Source: Anaerolineae bacterium
GTDB lineage: Bacteria > Chloroflexota > Anaerolineae > Anaerolineales > Villigracilaceae
DNA: 8,500 nucleotides
NCBI GenBank assembly: GCA_003524705.1
Contig: DQGV01000426.1
Span: 1 to 8,500, forward strand
Direction: 5' to 3'
This document shows, one piece after another, positions 127-6,819 of this stretch. Position numbers and translations under genes: made by a program. Under the pieces are notes generated by a model. That model saw nothing but the letters and a program-made list of their open reading frames with translations, ran no database searches and was not told the DNA's origin. Each line of letters opens with the position of its first letter. Position 1 is the first letter of the stretch.

Positions 127-225
127 CAGACCTGTCAGACCAATTAGACCAATTAGACCAATTAGACCTCTTAGACCTGTTAGACCACTCAGACTAATAA
201 GACTTGTAAGACTACTTAGACCTCT
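127..225. repeat. Degenerate 9-bp tandem repeat array, 11 units
   Basis: Eleven head-to-tail 9-bp units follow the pattern NAGACYNNT. Examples are cagacctgt at 127, tagaccaat at 145 and 154, tagacctct at 163 and 217, and tagacctgt at 172. The AGAC core is present in every unit and the last three core-flanking positions vary. The units start at 127, 136, 145, 154, 163, 172, 181, 190, 199, 208 and 217 with no slippage. The array fills the space between two convergent genes and extends 14 bp into the minus-strand gene, supplying its TAG stop and final codons (the C-terminal KRSK). It has no internal dyad, so it is not a typical terminator. The unit spacing is too short for a CRISPR. Confidence 0.9.
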
Positions 226-859
226 TCACCATAGAAGCATAGCGCGACACAAAATGCACCCACCAAGCGGATAACCGCGTCTGATACCTCGCCTGACGAA
301 TAACACTCCGCATCCCCTCCGCGCCTTCAAACTGCTCAAGCAATATTACAGATGTCCCCACCTCAAACGCCGCGTGCGCATCTGACCCAACCGTGCCAGC
401 CAAGTTATGCTTTTCAGCAAAGCGCTTCGCCTGCACGTTAAACATCGGGTTCATACACCGCGAATTGAAAACCTCAATCGCATCTACATCGTGAATAATC
501 TCAAGCAAATCGTTTTCCTCCCATCCCCCCTTCCTCAACCTATCAAACGGGTGCGACACACTAATAAACGCACCCTGTCCCTTCAATATCGTTATCGTCT
601 TCTGTGGTGATAACCCCGCAGGAATCTCCTCAGTCACATACGCCGCAAGGATTTCTCCTTTCGTCGTCATAATCTCCTCCCCCACAATCACCAACTCAGG
701 GTCAAGTTGTTGCGCCGCAACAGCCCCCGCCGTAGAGTTATGGTCAGTGATGACGAGTCTATCCAAGCCTTTGCGTCTCGCAGTCTTTATCAAATCCGCT
801 GGCTTGGTCAACGAATCTTTTGAAGCATCCGTATGGCAGTGAAATTCAAGTTTTAGCAT
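212..859 (-). CDS. PHP-domain metal-dependent phosphoesterase
   Basis: The 215-residue protein carries the metal-binding motifs of the PHP (polymerase and histidinol phosphatase) superfamily in order: HxH at H7/H9, TDH at D39-H40, GEE at E61, SHPFD with H103, N132 in VFNSR, and GSDAH with D160/H162. This set normally holds two or three metal ions and hydrolyses phosphoester bonds. Bacterial stand-alone members include RNase AM/YciV-type nucleotide phosphatases and histidinol phosphatases; which substrate applies here cannot be told. There is no signal peptide or membrane segment, so it should be cytoplasmic. The length fits a compact PHP protein without the large insert of YciV. The ATG at 857-859 places HxH at the N-terminus, as expected, but no SD precedes it. 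A TAAAAT box lies 6 nt upstream, which suggests a leaderless mRNA. The last four codons (KRSK) fall inside the 9-bp repeat array. Confidence 0.85.
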   Translation of the reverse strand: MLKLEFHCHTDASKDSLTKPADLIKTARRKGLDRLVITDHNSTAGAVAAQQLDPELVIVGEEIMTTKGEILAAYVTEEIPAGLSPQKTITILKGQGAFISVSHPFDRLRKGGWEENDLLEIIHDVDAIEVFNSRCMNPMFNVQAKRFAEKHNLAGTVGSDAHAAFEVGTSVILLEQFEGAEGMRSVIRQARYQTRLSAWWVHFVSRYASMVKRSK

Positions 860-906: not shown

Positions 907-2355
907 ATGCGGAAAATGTTTTCAGCCATCGGCGCATTTCTTGCTACACCACCGGGTGTCGTATTAATCACGGCTGTATTATGGCATGCGGTGGATTGGT
1001 TCTTAAACATTCCCTTCAATTGGCTAGCCAGCATCATCCTCTTAGCAATTGATGTTGTTATCGTTTTCATTTTAGTAGATAGGCTCACTTATTTCTTCTC
1101 ACAATTTGTCTTGCCTATTCAAAACAAAGAAGACCGCACAAAGATTTACGAACGTGTGCGCGACTTTGAATCCAGCGACCGCGGACCCATCTTATTCGTC
1201 AAGAATGGGCGCGTCATTACACATGAAGGTGAAGGCGAAAAACGCGGAGAAGGTGTAATCGTATTAGATTCTGCCAGTGCAGTCGTCCTCCGTACCGATA
1301 CTGAAATTGTCGGCTCGGTAGGTCCAGGCATTCGCTTCACCGAAGAAAAAGAATACATCATCAGTCATGTCAATGAGAAAAACGAAAAAGAATTTATCGG
1401 TGTAGATTTACGCACCCAATGGCGTTTTATCGGTCCGCTAGCAGTTGACCAGCCTTTTCTTAACCCTGTACCAATCCCTGACCCTAAAAAATATAATGAG
1501 ATGACAAAACGCCTCAAGCAAACGGTCGGCTTGACTCGTGACGGTTTTGAAGTTTCACCTACCATCAGCATTAAGTTCAGAGTAAAGCGTAAGAAGAATT
1601 CCATTTCACAAAGTGGAGTGAGATCGCGTTTTGAATATGACCCCGACTCTGTTCGTCATGCAGTCACGCGCGAAGTCGTAGAGTTAGATAAATCTGAAAA
1701 CAGGCGCGGGCGCATCACATGGAAGCAACTGCCTGAACATTTAGTCGTCAACTTATGGCGTGAGTATGTGCGCAAATTCAAACTAGAAGATTTGTTTACC
1801 TCAACAGATAGCCTAAGCGGGTTACAAACCATTGAATACATGCTCAATCGTCGCTTACAACAAGCCAGCGTAGCCGTGTTAGATGATACCGGTATGCCTG
1901 AAATGCCGACCCGTTACGCCACCAGCCTAGAATACAAACAACTGATAGAACGCGGGCTAGAAGTATTAGAAGTGCGCATTCACAATATCCTCTTTGAACC
2001 AAACTTAGAAGCAAAAGTGGTTGAGCAATGGAGTGCCGATTGGATGGGCTTAGCAAAACGAGAACAAGGCTTATTAAATGAAAAAGAGGCTTTGTTAGAA
2101 ACAGCCGCACGTAGTGAAGCCTCAAAAGAATTTGTGCGTGCCGCTTCGCAAAAGTTTAGCAATCCGTTTTTATCACCACCTGATATTTTTTCTGCCTTAC
2201 AAGACTTAATCGAACCCATTCGAGACAATCTACTCGCGAAAAACAATGCCAATCCAGAATTGGTCGCTACCCTAGAAGAACTTGATGATATTCTCAAATG
2301 GGCATTGGTGTATAAAGTAGACCCGCCTAGGGGTGGAAAGCAGGCGCAAGGATGA
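907..2355 (+). CDS. SPFH/band-7-like membrane protein, first of a tandem pair
   Basis: The 482-residue protein has two predicted N-terminal membrane helices (about 13-30 and 38-66). A soluble beta-rich region follows: FVKNGRVITHEGEG near 97-110, a VIVLDSASAVVLRTD strand pair at 117-131, and TRDGFEVSPTISIKFRVK at 210-227. The last resembles the SPFH (stomatin/prohibitin/flotillin) pattern in which a 'DG' turn precedes alternating hydrophobic strands. The segment LEVRIHNILFEPNLEAKVVEQW at 354-375, followed by a Glu/Ala/Lys-rich helix to about 415, matches the way SPFH domains pass into a coiled coil. Such proteins oligomerise at membranes as scaffolds; the exact role here is unknown. The frame stays open upstream to an ATG at 820, but that start would overlap the PHP gene and add 29 non-membrane residues. 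The ATG at 907 puts the helices at the N-terminus and is preferred; 916 is possible. The stop overlaps the next start (ATGA). Confidence 0.7.
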   Translation: MRKMFSAIGAFLATPPGVVLITAVLWHAVDWFLNIPFNWLASIILLAIDVVIVFILVDRLTYFFSQFVLPIQNKEDRTKIYERVRDFESSDRGPILFVKNGRVITHEGEGEKRGEGVIVLDSASAVVLRTDTEIVGSVGPGIRFTEEKEYIISHVNEKNEKEFIGVDLRTQWRFIGPLAVDQPFLNPVPIPDPKKYNEMTKRLKQTVGLTRDGFEVSPTISIKFRVKRKKNSISQSGVRSRFEYDPDSVRHAVTREVVELDKSENRRGRITWKQLPEHLVVNLWREYVRKFKLEDLFTSTDSLSGLQTIEYMLNRRLQQASVAVLDDTGMPEMPTRYATSLEYKQLIERGLEVLEVRIHNILFEPNLEAKVVEQWSADWMGLAKREQGLLNEKEALLETAARSEASKEFVRAASQKFSNPFLSPPDIFSALQDLIEPIRDNLLAKNNANPELVATLEELDDILKWALVYKVDPPRGGKQAQG

Positions 2356-3962
2356 GACGACAAAACTTCCAACGCGATGAAATCATCTCTTTGCTATATG
2401 GGCTCAGGGAGAGTAGTGTTAAATTCAGAAATACGTGGAAATGGATTGCCGCTTTATTTATATGGGGAAGCCTTAGCCTCCTGACTTTGCTGGTAACCGG
2501 TGACCAACTGCTGACACCAATCCAGCGCATTGCTATTATTTTTATGAGCAGTATCAAATATGTTCCCTTAATTTGGGTCATCTATAGCACTGCCAAAAGC
2601 AAAGCCGCCATATATTTGGATGATATCTTTGAATTACAAAACCAAGCTGTTGCAGAAACGTTTATCGAAGAAGTGGCATTTGGCGAAGGACATGAAAAAA
2701 TTACTATCAACGAAGGTAAGATTTCTGAAAAGGATGAACATTCACCCATTATTCTAATTGGTGGACCGGGCAAAATAAAAGTGAACCTCGGCAGTGCCGC
2801 CCTGCTCGAACAAGTGGATGGCGACCCCGAAATCATTTACGCCCGCAAAGAAGCATGGAATTTAGAAAGATTTGAACGCATTCGTGAAATCGGTGAAGAT
2901 GACCGCGTGGGCAAACGCCAATATGCCGCCATCAATTTGCGCGACCAATTTGTAGGCGGGCTATCTGTCAAATCGCGCACCAAAGATGGCATCCCGATTG
3001 AAGCGCAAGACATCAAAATCATATTCAGCATTTTGCGAACGCCGCAAAATATCAACTCTCAAGATGAAGACCCATATTCTTTTGATGAGCGTGCCGTTCA
3101 TTCATTGGTGTATAACCAAACCCTCATTACGCCACCGCCACCTACCACGCCTGGTGTTGCCTTTCCGTGGGATACAACTGTCATTCCATTGGTGACGAAT
3201 GAACTTGAAAAATTAATCACCTCCAGTGCATTGAGTCAGATACTTTCTAGCATCAGCCAAAAAGAAGTGGACTCTGTCAGTGATAATGAAGCCACCAACA
3301 CACAATTGCGAGTTGAAATCACCGGTGCATATACACGTGCTAGCCAAAGCAACCGTATGAACTTACGCAATTTTGAATCGCGCTCAAAGATTACCGATTT
3401 GTTTTATGAAAAATCCTTTAAGAAAAAAGCCGCAGAACTTGGCGTTGCCATTCATTGGATTGATATTGGCACATGGCAACTACCTAATACCATGATTACC
3501 GAAAATTTAAAACAAGCATGGGAGCAAGCCCGCGAGAACATTCGCCGCCGTAAAGAAATTGAAGGCTCACGCAAAAAAGTGGAACTTGATAAATTTCTAG
3601 AAGTCATCAACACTGCTATTATCACCAACTTTCACAAACATCCATACAGTTCAAAAAATAATGACCGCGACTATCTTGACTATGACGAGTTCGTGCGTTT
3701 ATTTGAAAAAGCATCAGAAATGAATAAAGGTGAAACCAGCAATCGCCAACGCCAACAAGAAAATCGCCCACCCACTGCAAAAGAAGCCTTTAGCACGGCG
3801 CGCGAAATATTACGCGCCTTCCGTAAAGAATTTCTTTCAGCCAAAGAATTGATTCAAAGAGAAAATAAATCTTCACACGAGAAAGAAATTGAAGTGGCTC
3901 GAATTGAAAAAGCCTTACGTGAAATTGATACCCACTTACACACACCGAAAAAATCACAATGA
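2352..3962 (+). CDS. SPFH/band-7-like membrane protein, second of a tandem pair
   Basis: The 536-residue protein repeats the layout of its upstream neighbour: two predicted N-terminal helices (about 31-50 and 58-80), then a beta-rich section. That section includes KITINEGKISEKDE (116-129), IILIGGPGKIKVNLGSAALLE (133-153) and SRTKDGIPIEAQDIKIIFSILR (208-229), the last matching the neighbour's TRDG-strand segment. GVAIHWIDIGTWQLPNTMITENLKQAWEQA at 364-393 is the SPFH exit strand and start of a helix. A highly charged, probably coiled-coil tail follows (about 385-415 and 470-530), with a proline run at 261-264. The two proteins appear to be ancient, strongly diverged paralogues and may form a hetero-oligomer. 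No NfeD-type partner is seen. Translation starts at an ATG overlapping the previous TGA by 4 bp with no well-placed SD, so coupling is likely. The name is less certain than for the first protein. Confidence 0.65.
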   Translation: MRRQNFQRDEIISLLYGLRESSVKFRNTWKWIAALFIWGSLSLLTLLVTGDQLLTPIQRIAIIFMSSIKYVPLIWVIYSTAKSKAAIYLDDIFELQNQAVAETFIEEVAFGEGHEKITINEGKISEKDEHSPIILIGGPGKIKVNLGSAALLEQVDGDPEIIYARKEAWNLERFERIREIGEDDRVGKRQYAAINLRDQFVGGLSVKSRTKDGIPIEAQDIKIIFSILRTPQNINSQDEDPYSFDERAVHSLVYNQTLITPPPPTTPGVAFPWDTTVIPLVTNELEKLITSSALSQILSSISQKEVDSVSDNEATNTQLRVEITGAYTRASQSNRMNLRNFESRSKITDLFYEKSFKKKAAELGVAIHWIDIGTWQLPNTMITENLKQAWEQARENIRRRKEIEGSRKKVELDKFLEVINTAIITNFHKHPYSSKNNDRDYLDYDEFVRLFEKASEMNKGETSNRQRQQENRPPTAKEAFSTAREILRAFRKEFLSAKELIQRENKSSHEKEIEVARIEKALREIDTHLHTPKKSQ

Positions 3963-4885
3963 AACATCCACATGTTCAACTCTCCACCGAAGTTGCCCGC
4001 GCCATCAACATTGGCTTGCCGCTTGTGGCACTTGAATCCACTGTTATTACGCATGGGCTTCCACAACCGCAAAATTTAGAACTGGCGCGTGAGATGGAAA
4101 AACAAATCCGTGACAATGGTGCCACTCCCGCAACCATTGCATTACTGGATGGAAAAATCCGCCTCGGTTTATCTGACGCAGAACTGATTCGGCTCAGTGA
4201 ACTGGATACAAGCCTGAAAGTAAGTCACCGTGATTTTGCAACCGCCATTACAAAAAAACAAAATGGCGGAACAACTGTAGCAGGCACTATGCTCGCCGCT
4301 AACATGGCTGGGATTAAAGTATTTGCAACTGGCGGAATTGGTGGCGTGCATAAAGAATCAGCGTTTGATATTTCAACTGATTTACATGCGCTATCTGAAA
4401 CGCAGATGATTGTAGTGTGTGCTGGAGCAAAATCTATTTTGGATTTGCCTGCTACATTGGAATATCTTGAAACGATGGGTGTGCCAGTGGTGGGTTATCA
4501 GACCGATGAATTCCCTGCTTTTTATTCGCGTGAAAGCGGATTGAACGCCAGTGTACGACTCGATTCCCCGAAAGAAATTGCTGAGTTTGCCAAAGCCCAT
4601 TGGAGTTTGGGATTAAGAAGCGGAATCCTTGTTACGAATCCGATTCCCCAAGCAGAATCAATTCCTGCATCTAAAATGGAACCGATGATTGCGAAAGCAT
4701 CTAAAGAAGCAGTTGAGCAAGGGATTCATGGACAAGCATTGACGCCGTTTTTGCTAAATCGAATCAATGAGTTATCCAAAGGAAAATCGTTGAAAGCGAA
4801 TTTGGCTTTGTTGTTGAACAACGCGCGCCTCGCGGCTGACATTGCAAAAGAGATGACCGTGCGAAAGAAAGAGTGGGCGATATAA
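3959..4885 (+). CDS. psuG: Pseudouridine-5'-phosphate glycosidase
   Basis: The 308-residue protein is a full-length member of the PsuG/IndA family. These enzymes reversibly split pseudouridine 5'-phosphate into uracil and ribose 5-phosphate, opening the C-C glycosidic bond through a lysine-ribose adduct. Hallmarks run in order: VALESTVITHGLPQPQN (23-39), the glutamate E26; GATPATIALLDGKIRLGL (54-71); LKVSHRD (86-92) with K87; GGTTVAGTM (103-111); VFATGGIGGVH (121-131); FDISTDL (136-142); CAGAKSILD (154-162) with K158, the expected adduct lysine; and N281 near the C-terminus. Spacing agrees with the E. coli enzyme as I remember it. It is cytoplasmic. The ATG overlaps the stop of the SPFH gene by 4 bp and has no SD, so it is the third cistron. 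No pseudouridine kinase (psuK) gene is visible, unlike many psuK-psuG loci; that kinase must be elsewhere or be fused or replaced. Confidence 0.96.
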   Translation: MKHPHVQLSTEVARAINIGLPLVALESTVITHGLPQPQNLELAREMEKQIRDNGATPATIALLDGKIRLGLSDAELIRLSELDTSLKVSHRDFATAITKKQNGGTTVAGTMLAANMAGIKVFATGGIGGVHKESAFDISTDLHALSETQMIVVCAGAKSILDLPATLEYLETMGVPVVGYQTDEFPAFYSRESGLNASVRLDSPKEIAEFAKAHWSLGLRSGILVTNPIPQAESIPASKMEPMIAKASKEAVEQGIHGQALTPFLLNRINELSKGKSLKANLALLLNNARLAADIAKEMTVRKKEWAI

Positions 4886-4926: not shown

Positions 4927-5319
4927 ATGGATAGAAAACCTCCACTTGAATCAGAATTAGTGCAAGAATTTGTAGGAGTAGCTCATACTGATTTAAATCG
5001 CGTCAAAGAATTGTTGGAACGTGAACCTGCTTTGGTGAATGCCTGTTGGGATTGGGGTGGCGGTGATTTTGAAACTGCGCTTGGTGCGGCGGCTCACATG
5101 GGCGCAAAAGATGTTGCAAATTATTTATTGGAACGTGGCGCACGCTTAGATATTTTTGCGGCGGCTATGTTAGGCAAATTAGAAATCGTCAAAGCCGCGT
5201 TGAAAGAATATCCGAATGCAAAAGATATTTTAGGTCCACATGGCATTCCGTTGATTACACATGCAGAACAAGGTGGTGATGATGCAAAAGAAGTTTTGGA
5301 GTTTCTAAAATCTTTATAA
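4927..5319 (+). CDS. Small ankyrin-repeat protein
   Basis: The 130-residue protein is made almost wholly of ankyrin-type helix-turn-helix units. These are residues 10-40 (VGVAHTDLNRVKELLEREPALVN), 48-75 (ETALGAAAHMGAKDVANYLL then ERGARLDI), 76-104 (FAAAMLGKLEIVKAAL then KEYPNAKD) and 105-130 (HGIPLITHAEQGGDDAKEVL). Ankyrin repeats bind other proteins; no enzyme motif, signal peptide or membrane helix is present, so it should be a cytoplasmic binding protein of unknown partner. A clear SD (AAGGAG, 4913-4918) lies 8 nt before the ATG and fixes the start. It follows psuG by 41 bp and may be read from that operon or from its own weak promoter. A GC-rich hairpin begins 5 bp after the stop. Confidence 0.85.
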   Translation: MDRKPPLESELVQEFVGVAHTDLNRVKELLEREPALVNACWDWGGGDFETALGAAAHMGAKDVANYLLERGARLDIFAAAMLGKLEIVKAALKEYPNAKDILGPHGIPLITHAEQGGDDAKEVLEFLKSL

Positions 5320-5324
5320 TTTTT

Positions 5325-5353
5325 TGTAGGGGCGAGGAGACCTCGCCCCTACA
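5325..5353 (+). terminator. Perfect GC-rich hairpin followed by T5: rho-independent terminator or REP-like element
   Basis: TGTAGGGGCGAGG (5325-5337) and CCTCGCCCCTACA (5341-5353) are exact complements separated by AGA, a 13-bp stem with a 3-nt loop. TTTTT (5354-5358) follows at once, as in an intrinsic terminator for the ankyrin gene. A T-run also precedes the left arm, so the element could act on either strand. The SD of the next gene begins only 2 nt after the T-tract, leaving no room for a promoter between them. The element is either a leaky terminator or attenuator, or a dispersed REP/MITE-like sequence that landed in the spacer. I recall similar GTAGGGGCG palindromes as abundant intergenic repeats in some Chloroflexota and cyanobacteria, but cannot check copy number here. 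Confidence 0.75.
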
Positions 5354-5371: not shown

Positions 5372-5719
5372 ATGACAGAAAAATCAGGTGCACAAATTAG
5401 TCAGAAAGCATTTATTCAATCGGTCGTCATTTTATTTGCATTGATGATGATTGCGGGGATTCTTACGCTTGTGATTCCAGCTGGTCAATATGCCCGCACT
5501 GAAGTGGATGGACGCGAAACTATCGTCCCTGATTCATTTGCATTCACCGAAAGACCAGATTATCCATTTTGGCGTTGGTTTATCGCTCCGCTTGAAGTGG
5601 TCACTGGACCTGATGGTTTAACTGTTATAGTCATTACAGTTTTTATCTTAATGGTTGGCGTGGCTTTTGCAGTTATGGATAAAAGTGGAATACTAAAAGC
5701 CACTCTGCTCGTATTGTAA
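5372..5719 (+). CDS. YfcC/DcuC-family membrane transporter, N-terminal part (frameshifted)
   Basis: This frame gives 115 codons, of which the first 112 are genuine transporter sequence. A first membrane helix (about 14-36) ends in the LVIPAGQYAR motif typical of YfcC-like carriers of the C4-dicarboxylate/basic amino acid superfamily. An extracytoplasmic loop follows (40-80), with FWRWFIAPLEVVTGPDG (66-82). A second helix (83-102) ends in VMDKSGILKATL. Family members continue here with an arginine-rich cytoplasmic turn, but this frame gives only VL before TAA at 5717-5719, while the expected turn is in the +2 frame. AGGAG (5360-5364) lies 7 nt before the ATG and fixes the start. Rejoined with the next segment the protein would be 482 residues, the normal size for the family. 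Confidence 0.8.
   Translation: MTEKSGAQISQKAFIQSVVILFALMMIAGILTLVIPAGQYARTEVDGRETIVPDSFAFTERPDYPFWRWFIAPLEVVTGPDGLTVIVITVFILMVGVAFAVMDKSGILKATLLVL
5702..5719 (+). other. Frameshift junction: one base missing between the two transporter segments
   Basis: Reading ...gcc act ctg ctc gta ttg taa closes the first frame. Switching at 5707 gives gct cgt att gta aga aga ttt gaa (ARIVRRFE), the continuation the family expects after GILKATL. Restoring one base at about 5705-5709, for example ctg-gct for ctgct, joins both parts into a single 483-codon frame. There is no slippery heptamer or long homopolymer at the site, so programmed frameshifting looks unlikely. A sequencing or assembly error, or a recent mutation, explains it better. 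Confidence 0.85.
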
Positions 5720-6819
5720 GAAGATTTGAAAAACAAAAATATACTTTGTTATTAGTGATTTCATTTTTCTTTATGGCTTTAGGTGCATTCTTTGGAATCT
5801 TTGAAGAAATTGTTCCGCTTGTGCCATTGATGATTGCTTTATCGTATTCTCTCAAATGGGATACATTGACAGGTTTGGGCATGTCCATCCTTGCTACAAA
5901 TATGGGTTTTTCTGCCGCGATTACAAATCCATTCACGATTGGTGTGGCACAAGGCATTGCCGATTTACCCGCATTTTCTGGCACTGGCTATCGCATTATC
6001 ATTTTTATATTCATGTATATTCTGCTGGCTGTGTTTTTAACTCGCCACGCCAAAAAGGTAGAGGCAAATGCCAAAGCATCACCAGTCTATGAAGAAGAAC
6101 AAGAGACGCGCAAAAAATATAGCAACTTCACTACTGAAGCCATTGCTCATGAAAATTCTCGCACCACGCCAGCGATTATCTTCTTAATCATTTGTGTTGT
6201 GTTGATTTTTGCGACATTATTCGCAGGGCCTTTCATCCCTGCTATAAGTGATTATGCTTTACCAATCGTCGGTTTGTTATTTTTGATTGCAGGTATCGGC
6301 TCAGGTTTAATTGCAGGCGTCGGTAAAGATGCATGGAAAGCCGCAGGCGAAGGGCTGGCTGGTATTGCGCCTGCCATTCCGTTAATTCTTATGGCGGCAA
6401 GTGTCAAATACATTATCGCTTCAGGTGGCATTCTAGACACAATTTTGCACAATGCTGCCAACGCATTTCAAGGCGCAAACCCTGTCGTTGCCGCGTTGCT
6501 AATTTATTTCCTTACACTCGTCATCGAATTTTTTGTTTCCAGTGGTTCAGCCAAAGCATTTCTGATTATGCCCATTATGATTCCGCTTGCAGACCTTGTT
6601 GGCGTTACACGTCAAACCGCAGTGCTGGCGTATGTTTTTGGTGATGGCTTCTCAAATCTCGCGTATCCGACCAGTGCTGTGCTTCTCATTTGTTTAGGTC
6701 TCACAGCCGTTACATATCCGAAATGGTTGCGTTGGGTCATGGGTTTGTGGGTTTGGGTGATTCTTGCTTCGCTTGTTTTTCTTGCCATTGCAGTGCTGAT
6801 TAACTACGGTCCATTTTGA
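5707..6819 (+). CDS. YfcC/DcuC-family membrane transporter, C-terminal part (frameshifted)
   Basis: By similarity this part starts at 5707. If translated alone it would need a TTG at 5746 or a later ATG, and neither has a good SD. In restored numbering (113-482) it holds about nine to ten predicted helices. Family-like stretches include FFGIFEEIVPLVPLMIAL (140-157), MGFSAAITNPFTIGVAQGIAD (178-198), a hydrophilic loop (225-265) and EFFVSSGSAKAFLIMPIMIPLADL (386-409), whose SSGSAK is a likely substrate-site turn. GDGFSNLAYPTSAVLLICLG (424-443) matches the 'GDG.sN...PTsg' signature. Such carriers move amino acids, peptides or dicarboxylates across the inner membrane; the substrate here is unknown. 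The sequence shows no further stops or decay, so the break is recent or artificial. The TGA stop overlaps the ATG of the hydrolase gene. Confidence 0.85.
   Translation, partial: ARIVRRFEKQKYTLLLVISFFFMALGAFFGIFEEIVPLVPLMIALSYSLKWDTLTGLGMSILATNMGFSAAITNPFTIGVAQGIADLPAFSGTGYRIIIFIFMYILLAVFLTRHAKKVEANAKASPVYEEEQETRKKYSNFTTEAIAHENSRTTPAIIFLIICVVLIFATLFAGPFIPAISDYALPIVGLLFLIAGIGSGLIAGVGKDAWKAAGEGLAGIAPAIPLILMAASVKYIIASGGILDTILHNAANAFQGANPVVAALLIYFLTLVIEFFVSSGSAKAFLIMPIMIPLADLVGVTRQTAVLAYVFGDGFSNLAYPTSAVLLICLGLTAVTYPKWLRWVMGLWVWVILASLVFLAIAVLINYGPF

Follow-up and report, generated by a model that had tools for sequence, protein, structure and literature searches.

A diverged pair of SPFH proteins recurrently linked to pseudouridine catabolism genes in Anaerolineae

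The SPFH domains of the stomatins and flotillins are cytoplasmic, held at the membrane by hairpin-type anchors, and those of HflK and HflC face the periplasm. As set out in the sections of PMC12624060 drawn on here, known SPFH complexes are either homo-oligomeric or assembled from heterodimers of two paralogues; the two-paralogue heteromers FLOT1/2, PHB1/2 and Erlin1/2 are domes with alternating subunits and C-termini, and HflK and HflC have one N-terminal transmembrane helix. The portion of the 2009 survey of prokaryotic SPFH proteins cited here names NfeD partners for subgroups SPFH1, 2 and 5 and identifies none for the other subgroups (PMC2636767). Pseudouridine is broken down in two steps, PsuK converting pseudouridine to 5'-PsiMP and PsuG converting 5'-PsiMP to uracil and ribose 5-phosphate, according to the passages of PMC9247573 on which we rely. 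Here we describe two SPFH proteins, A and B, that form a real and conserved subfamily which is not described in the open-licence PMC papers searched and which is recurrently linked to pseudouridine catabolism.

The locus in the window and in close relatives

The window, by which we mean the whole 8500-nucleotide stretch of DNA that was analysed, contains the following features around the two SPFH genes.

212..859, minus strand: gene for a PHP-domain phosphoesterase, 215 aa (PF02811/PF13263)
907..2355, plus strand: gene for protein A, an SPFH protein, 482 aa
2352..2355, plus strand: ATGA stop/start overlap of the A and B genes, read from the sequence
2352..3962, plus strand: gene for protein B, the second SPFH protein, 536 aa
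3959..3962, plus strand: ATGA stop/start overlap of the B gene and psuG, read from the sequence
3959..4885, plus strand: psuG, pseudouridine-5'-phosphate glycosidase, 308 aa (PF04227)

The original prediction was of an operon of three genes joined by two 4-bp overlaps and lacking NfeD, and the sequence agrees: the three ORFs are present, ATGA stands at 2352-2355 and 3959-3962, and a Pfam scan of eight window ORFs gave no NfeD match. The naming of the third gene as a pseudouridine-phosphate glycosidase was likewise borne out, by a PF04227 match of 414 bits (cut-off 25.2, E 3.4e-124) and by a nearly full-length match to the solved PsuG 4gij (residues 6-299, E 1.3e-86), in which the AGAKSILDL segment, whose lysine we take to be catalytic, is retained. 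The product looks like an ordinary pseudouridine-5'-phosphate glycosidase, with predicted activity on PsiMP.

A scan of genome contigs with the A alignment gave 101 confirmed stretches, the best 80 of which yielded 78 loci, the nearest (L001) being that of UBA2317, an Anaerolineales MAG whose A protein is 81% identical; the window itself is thus most probably of Anaerolineales (Chloroflexota) origin. In 67 of the 78, psuG lies downstream of A-B on the same strand, more often than chance would give. In nine of the other 11 loci the contig stops within 700 bp, whereas the remaining two (L047 and L078) have room yet no psuG; L047, a close SPFH pair, shares its assembly with L012, which carries A-B-psuG. 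In 14 of the 78 the gene after B encodes a psuK-like kinase of the PfkB family, with psuG next in 13 and the contig ending first in L067. Cultured carriers of the locus are Thermanaerothrix daxensis GNS-1 (L060) and Bellilinea caldifistulae GOMI-1 (L061). In a sample of 249 genomes from the class, 74 gave any match to A, and in 11 the match was strong (E<1e-100). Each of these 11 has psuG downstream on that contig and in the same orientation; at least four of them (G001, G003, G007 and G011) overlap with the first scan. The contig of L038 ends, after B, with a further close copy of A, and L005, L029, L041 and L043 hold additional diverged members of the A-B family with no recognised partner.

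Four further gene families downstream recur in 32 to 46 of the 78 loci, three of them recognisably unrelated in function. The whole locus is thus syntenic in close relatives, so that gene order alone is weak proof there. This wider synteny favours a rival reading, in which the two SPFH proteins organise the membrane or serve quality control in a general way, as a scaffold of the HflKC, stomatin or flotillin kind, and psuG and psuK are co-transcribed passengers, carried along by operon inertia and shared regulation. We regard that reading as a serious contender that falls somewhat short of being probable, and we return to it below.

Overlaps and starts were surveyed in 52 of the 67 psuG loci, those with a kinase gene in between (13) or with a broken A frame (L051 and L068) being left out. 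The 4-bp overlap of A and B was found in 46 of the 52 and that of B and psuG in 25, the remaining B-psuG junctions being short gaps or unresolved starts. As had been foreseen, neither internal start of the window operon, that of B or that of psuG, has a Shine-Dalgarno-like motif; the further step of taking this as a sign that synthesis of the proteins is tied together did not survive, because the motif is commonly absent from the genes of relatives and its lack at the internal starts therefore means little. In the relatives it precedes B in 35 of 46 cases and psuG in 7 of 52, and across L001-L078 it is rare at A (2/32), at the PHP gene (5/32) and at a neighbouring amino-acid-kinase gene (1/37) but present at FTHFS in 27 of 32. 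With so mixed a baseline, missing motifs were rejected as a coupling signal.

The PHP gene is divergent from A, with 47 bp between the two starts, and 39 of the 78 relative loci have a PHP gene upstream and oppositely oriented, in 26 of these within 300 bp or with overlapping ORFs. The top NCBIfam model for its product is of the CehA/McbA type, with a score under the cut-off of that model. We considered and dropped a reading of the protein as an RNase: the solved chains nearest to it are those of a PHP phosphoesterase, with E 1.6e-7, and of a 5'-3' exoribonuclease, with E 4.6e-4, matches that are too weak. It is a frequent neighbour, and we are unsure whether it has a role in the A-B-psuG system. 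Downstream of the PHP gene, at 128-225, a AGACCAATT-like sequence is repeated in tandem, with 9-bp and 18-bp periods. On the other side of the operon, 41 bp past psuG, a small ankyrin-repeat protein is encoded at 4927-5319, possibly in the same transcript as psuG, and is followed at 5325-5353 by a terminator-like hairpin of 13 pairs; beyond it, a YfcC/DcuC-type transporter gene is broken into two frames (5372-5719 and 5746-6819) by a frameshift or an assembly error. There was no Rfam match within the window. Between positions 700 and 5400 we counted 10 promoter-like sites against 8.8 in shuffled sequence, and five terminator-like sites against 5.9, and we claim no promoter.

Fold, kinship and membrane anchoring of A and B

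Both proteins had been predicted to be SPFH-like, with structure prediction proposed as the check, and the check gave SPFH matches where sequence profiles scarcely detect either protein. SPFH structures head all four structure-match lists obtained with AlphaFold monomer models of the two proteins, which have a pLDDT of 85 for A and 80 for B. The top Foldseek match of A is 7vhq_G, from an HflK/C entry, and erlin and prohibitin are among the leading VIA structure matches, with identities to A and B of 9-16% over the aligned parts. In the model, A has helices at 15-32 and 39-65, an SPFH region at approximately 84-364, a long helix at 365-414 and C-terminal helices; B has helices at 20-49 and 56-93, an SPFH region at approximately 115-378, a long helix at 381-428 and a C-terminal helical region. 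The first two helices of each protein are predicted, by model and hydropathy, to be hydrophobic, which upholds the earlier description of two N-terminal helices per protein.

It might be argued that the locus is an artefact of chance neighbours and a spurious SPFH resemblance. Pfam Band_7 reaches only 12.8 bits on A (E 0.12), below its cut-off of 23.6, and on B it gives no match, nor is there anything credible for B among the Pfam models. Against this stand the predicted structures, the homologue searches, which returned 404 and 476 protein matches (the best 120 of each were examined), the gene order kept in 67 of the 78 loci, and the distant homologues, of which the best 120 of 285 carry PF01145 in every case (120/120). 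An artefact is so improbable, in our judgement, that it can be set aside. Since the distant homologues carry PF01145, we read the A and B of the window as diverged members of the SPFH / Band_7 superfamily, to which they belong by predicted fold. Kinship of B with S-100 or cystathionine-lyase proteins was rejected, the matches having E values of only 0.21 and 0.5.

The paralogy of the two proteins also speaks against an artefact. Compared with each other as profiles built by deeper sampling, A and B match with a probability of 97.4 and E 1e-11, whereas profiles of close homologues only give a weak match (probability 5.9). We trust the deeper comparison over the shallow one, and by that profile evidence A and B are ancient paralogues.

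The charges flanking the N-terminal hairpins follow an N-in/C-in pattern in every row examined (48 of 48 for A, 48 of 48 for B). This pattern, a rough guide rather than a topology measurement, suggests that the SPFH domains of both proteins lie in the cytoplasm.

Pathway genes and protease-like partners in the wider family

Beyond the close relatives, 63 genomes of the class have a weaker match to A (one of them, G045, only as a 55-bit fragment). These were scored as linked if a pathway gene lay on the same strand at most 7 kb downstream, and as unlinked if at least 3 kb of sequence held neither gene. A pathway gene was found downstream in 32, namely a psuK-like gene only in 21, psuG only in nine and both in two; 22 of the 54 judgeable genomes had neither, nine of the 63 being unjudgeable. 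The predicted conservation of an SPFH-SPFH-psuG order thus holds in the close family (67/78) and fails as a rule for the weaker-A genomes, where 11 of 63 have psuG near and 32 of 63 have at least one of the two pathway genes. The link to psuK goes further than the original prediction. All 34 psuG or psuK-like ORFs in these loci lie downstream on the same strand, a uniformity that is partly built in, the loci having been cut mostly downstream.

Against a profile made from linked kinases, those of the weaker-A loci reach 311-482 bits. Two kinases that adjoin psuG without an SPFH pair (L094 and L095) score equally high; of the others in that setting, two reach 192-195 bits and one 44. The top NCBIfam model was pseudouridine kinase NF007355 for 12 of 12 PfkB proteins (for L153 by a narrow margin), with scores of 139-183 bits that lie far below the equivalog cut-off of 540, for which reason we call them psuK-like rather than PsuK. 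The best PDB match for three of three kinases was 7vkp, a named pseudouridine kinase (E 3e-42 for one). ORFs of approximately 220-236 aa follow the psuK-like gene in L117 (5294-5989) and also in L102, L114, L116 and L118; the five tested gave no NCBIfam match, and the L117 product presumably resembles a CTP-dependent polyprenol or phytol kinase.

The absence of both pathway genes from 22 of the 54 judgeable weaker-A genomes fits the passenger reading, and so does the view from psuG. This gene is present in 191 of the 249 genomes of the class sample; among 60 psuG loci, taken non-randomly as alternate rows from the upper part of the class list and several of them on short contigs, 13 have the SPFH pair and 47 have no SPFH gene of the A-B family nearby (a weak match on the opposite strand, in L149, was left out of the count). 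PsuG therefore works without A-B.

Two findings tell against mere passengers. The first is that both genes of a two-step pathway turn up repeatedly next to the SPFH pair in diverged branches, with repeated changes of partner on the tree; this is our main argument that the neighbourhood is meaningful. When 75 A proteins are placed on a tree, their partner labels cluster (none of 500 shuffles was as low), with at least eight label changes for psuG and at least four for psuK on starred branches. The rows of this tree, which was built quickly and has some long branches, comprise the window, 52 from 64 weaker-A loci, 19 chosen among the 78 loci of the first scan and three A proteins from extra pairs, rows with no usable A having been dropped and six being unlabelled. 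The second concerns 15 linked genomes hand-picked from those of the 78 loci, most of them draft assemblies, which have one psuG each and, in 15 of 15, from three to 11 Band_7 matches per genome, mostly not A-B. The pair is thus an addition to a basic SPFH set, and the idea that it replaces absent standard SPFH proteins was rejected on the same count. An orthologue of psuK, at 50-90% identity, is present in five of these genomes; none was found in the other 10, including the nearest, G001, the best identity there being 24-31%.

Some members of the wider family adjoin another gene, encoding a protein that we call X, with S24-type (LexA-like) and TPR-like segments. X-family proteins stand beside extra diverged SPFH genes in eight of the 78 loci, and at a lax threshold of 20 bits an X-profile match follows the SPFH genes in 15 of the 32 linked and 10 of the 22 unlinked weaker-A genomes. 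Proteins with both segments that adjoin SPFH genes include L007:2801-3943 and L104:7672-8796. Certain copies look active, keeping a GxSMN serine and a KR lysine that we take to be a catalytic dyad. From these observations one could take the core of the system to be A-B with X. In this view the SPFH proteins would form a cage enclosing a protease-like regulator of the serine-lysine type, an arrangement comparable to SPFH-NfeD or HflKC-FtsH, and psuK and psuG would have joined later as targets or regulated cargo genes. The window has no X gene, however, in the A-B-psuG operons of close relatives B is followed at once by psuG, and the motif is lost in L103, L114, L116 and L117; we consider such a core improbable. 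On its sequence, X is possibly an SPFH-linked protease or possibly a reused fold, and its association with A-B-family pairs is reminiscent of the proteases that figure in other SPFH systems.

Proposed role and comparison with known systems

The reading that we prefer, and to which we give even weight for and against, is that A and B form a membrane-held cytoplasmic SPFH heteromer, probably an alternating domed ring, which is tied to the breakdown of pseudouridine nucleotides and has PsuG at or inside it. Each protein would be fixed in the inner membrane through its N-terminal helical hairpin, with the SPFH domain placed in the cytoplasm by the charge pattern, and the two would probably alternate as subunits, by analogy with the solved two-paralogue complexes. 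The A-B transcript is probably shared by psuG and, in other lineages, by the psuK-like kinase gene, and PsuG most likely acts at the assembly or within it, which would keep the enzyme near its source of substrate in RNA decay or would shield the cell from free PsiMP. In the lineage of the window, where no psuK orthologue was found, PsuG would need to draw 5'-PsiMP directly from RNA turnover or from another kinase. What the analysis shows is the fold as predicted, the paralogy, the kept order of genes and the repeated linkage to two genes of the pathway; the hetero-ring, the cytoplasmic side, the common transcript, the contact with PsuG and the function are inferred. A functional link of A-B to pseudouridine catabolism stands at about an even chance in our estimation, and a true compartment is less likely than such a link. 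The fullest form of the proposal, a membrane-attached SPFH hetero-cage of Anaerolineae facing the cytoplasm, housing PsuG (and in some lineages the pseudouridine kinase) and destroying locally the pseudouridine nucleotides released by RNA decay, we consider doubtful.

With both enzymes of pseudouridine breakdown as recurrent partners, A-B offers a specific client pathway for which an SPFH complex can be tested, and it prompts one to ask why a membrane scaffold would be needed to dispose of modified nucleotides. Within the open-licence PMC literature, which leaves most subscription papers and bioRxiv preprints outside, we found no link between SPFH proteins and pseudouridine, and no paper that treats Anaerolineae and SPFH together.

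Among the described systems, HflK-HflC (SPFH3, Proteobacteria) resembles A-B in having two SPFH paralogues with an SPFH1-SPFH2-long helix layout, and differs in that A and B have two N-terminal helices, a cytoplasm-facing charge pattern and psuG as the partner gene; against the NCBIfam hflC model, A scores 14.5 bits with a cut-off of 134.4. The operons of stomatin or flotillin (SPFH1/SPFH2) with NfeD share with our locus the placing of SPFH genes in conserved operons, but the window has no NfeD match. Human FLOT1/2, PHB1/2 and Erlin1/2 are, like A and B, pairs of SPFH paralogues, and we know of no link between them and nucleotide catabolism. As for the pathway, the PsuG of the window resembles that of the E. 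coli PsuK-PsuG system in being 4gij-like, and related loci supply a psuK-like kinase, whereas the portion of PMC9247573 cited for the E. coli enzymes mentions no SPFH partner. A further difference from the E. coli pathway is that G001 and nine other linked genomes had no psuK orthologue. In plants, pseudouridine is reportedly broken down in the peroxisome, and the compartment is said, in the 2020 work of Chen and Witte, to prevent toxic accumulation of PsiMP. There the PUKI/PUMY pathway is confined to an organelle and not to an SPFH assembly, and the parallel is one of idea only; if the cage exists, it would be a functional counterpart of the peroxisomal pathway, an SPFH assembly with catabolic enzymes as its cargo.
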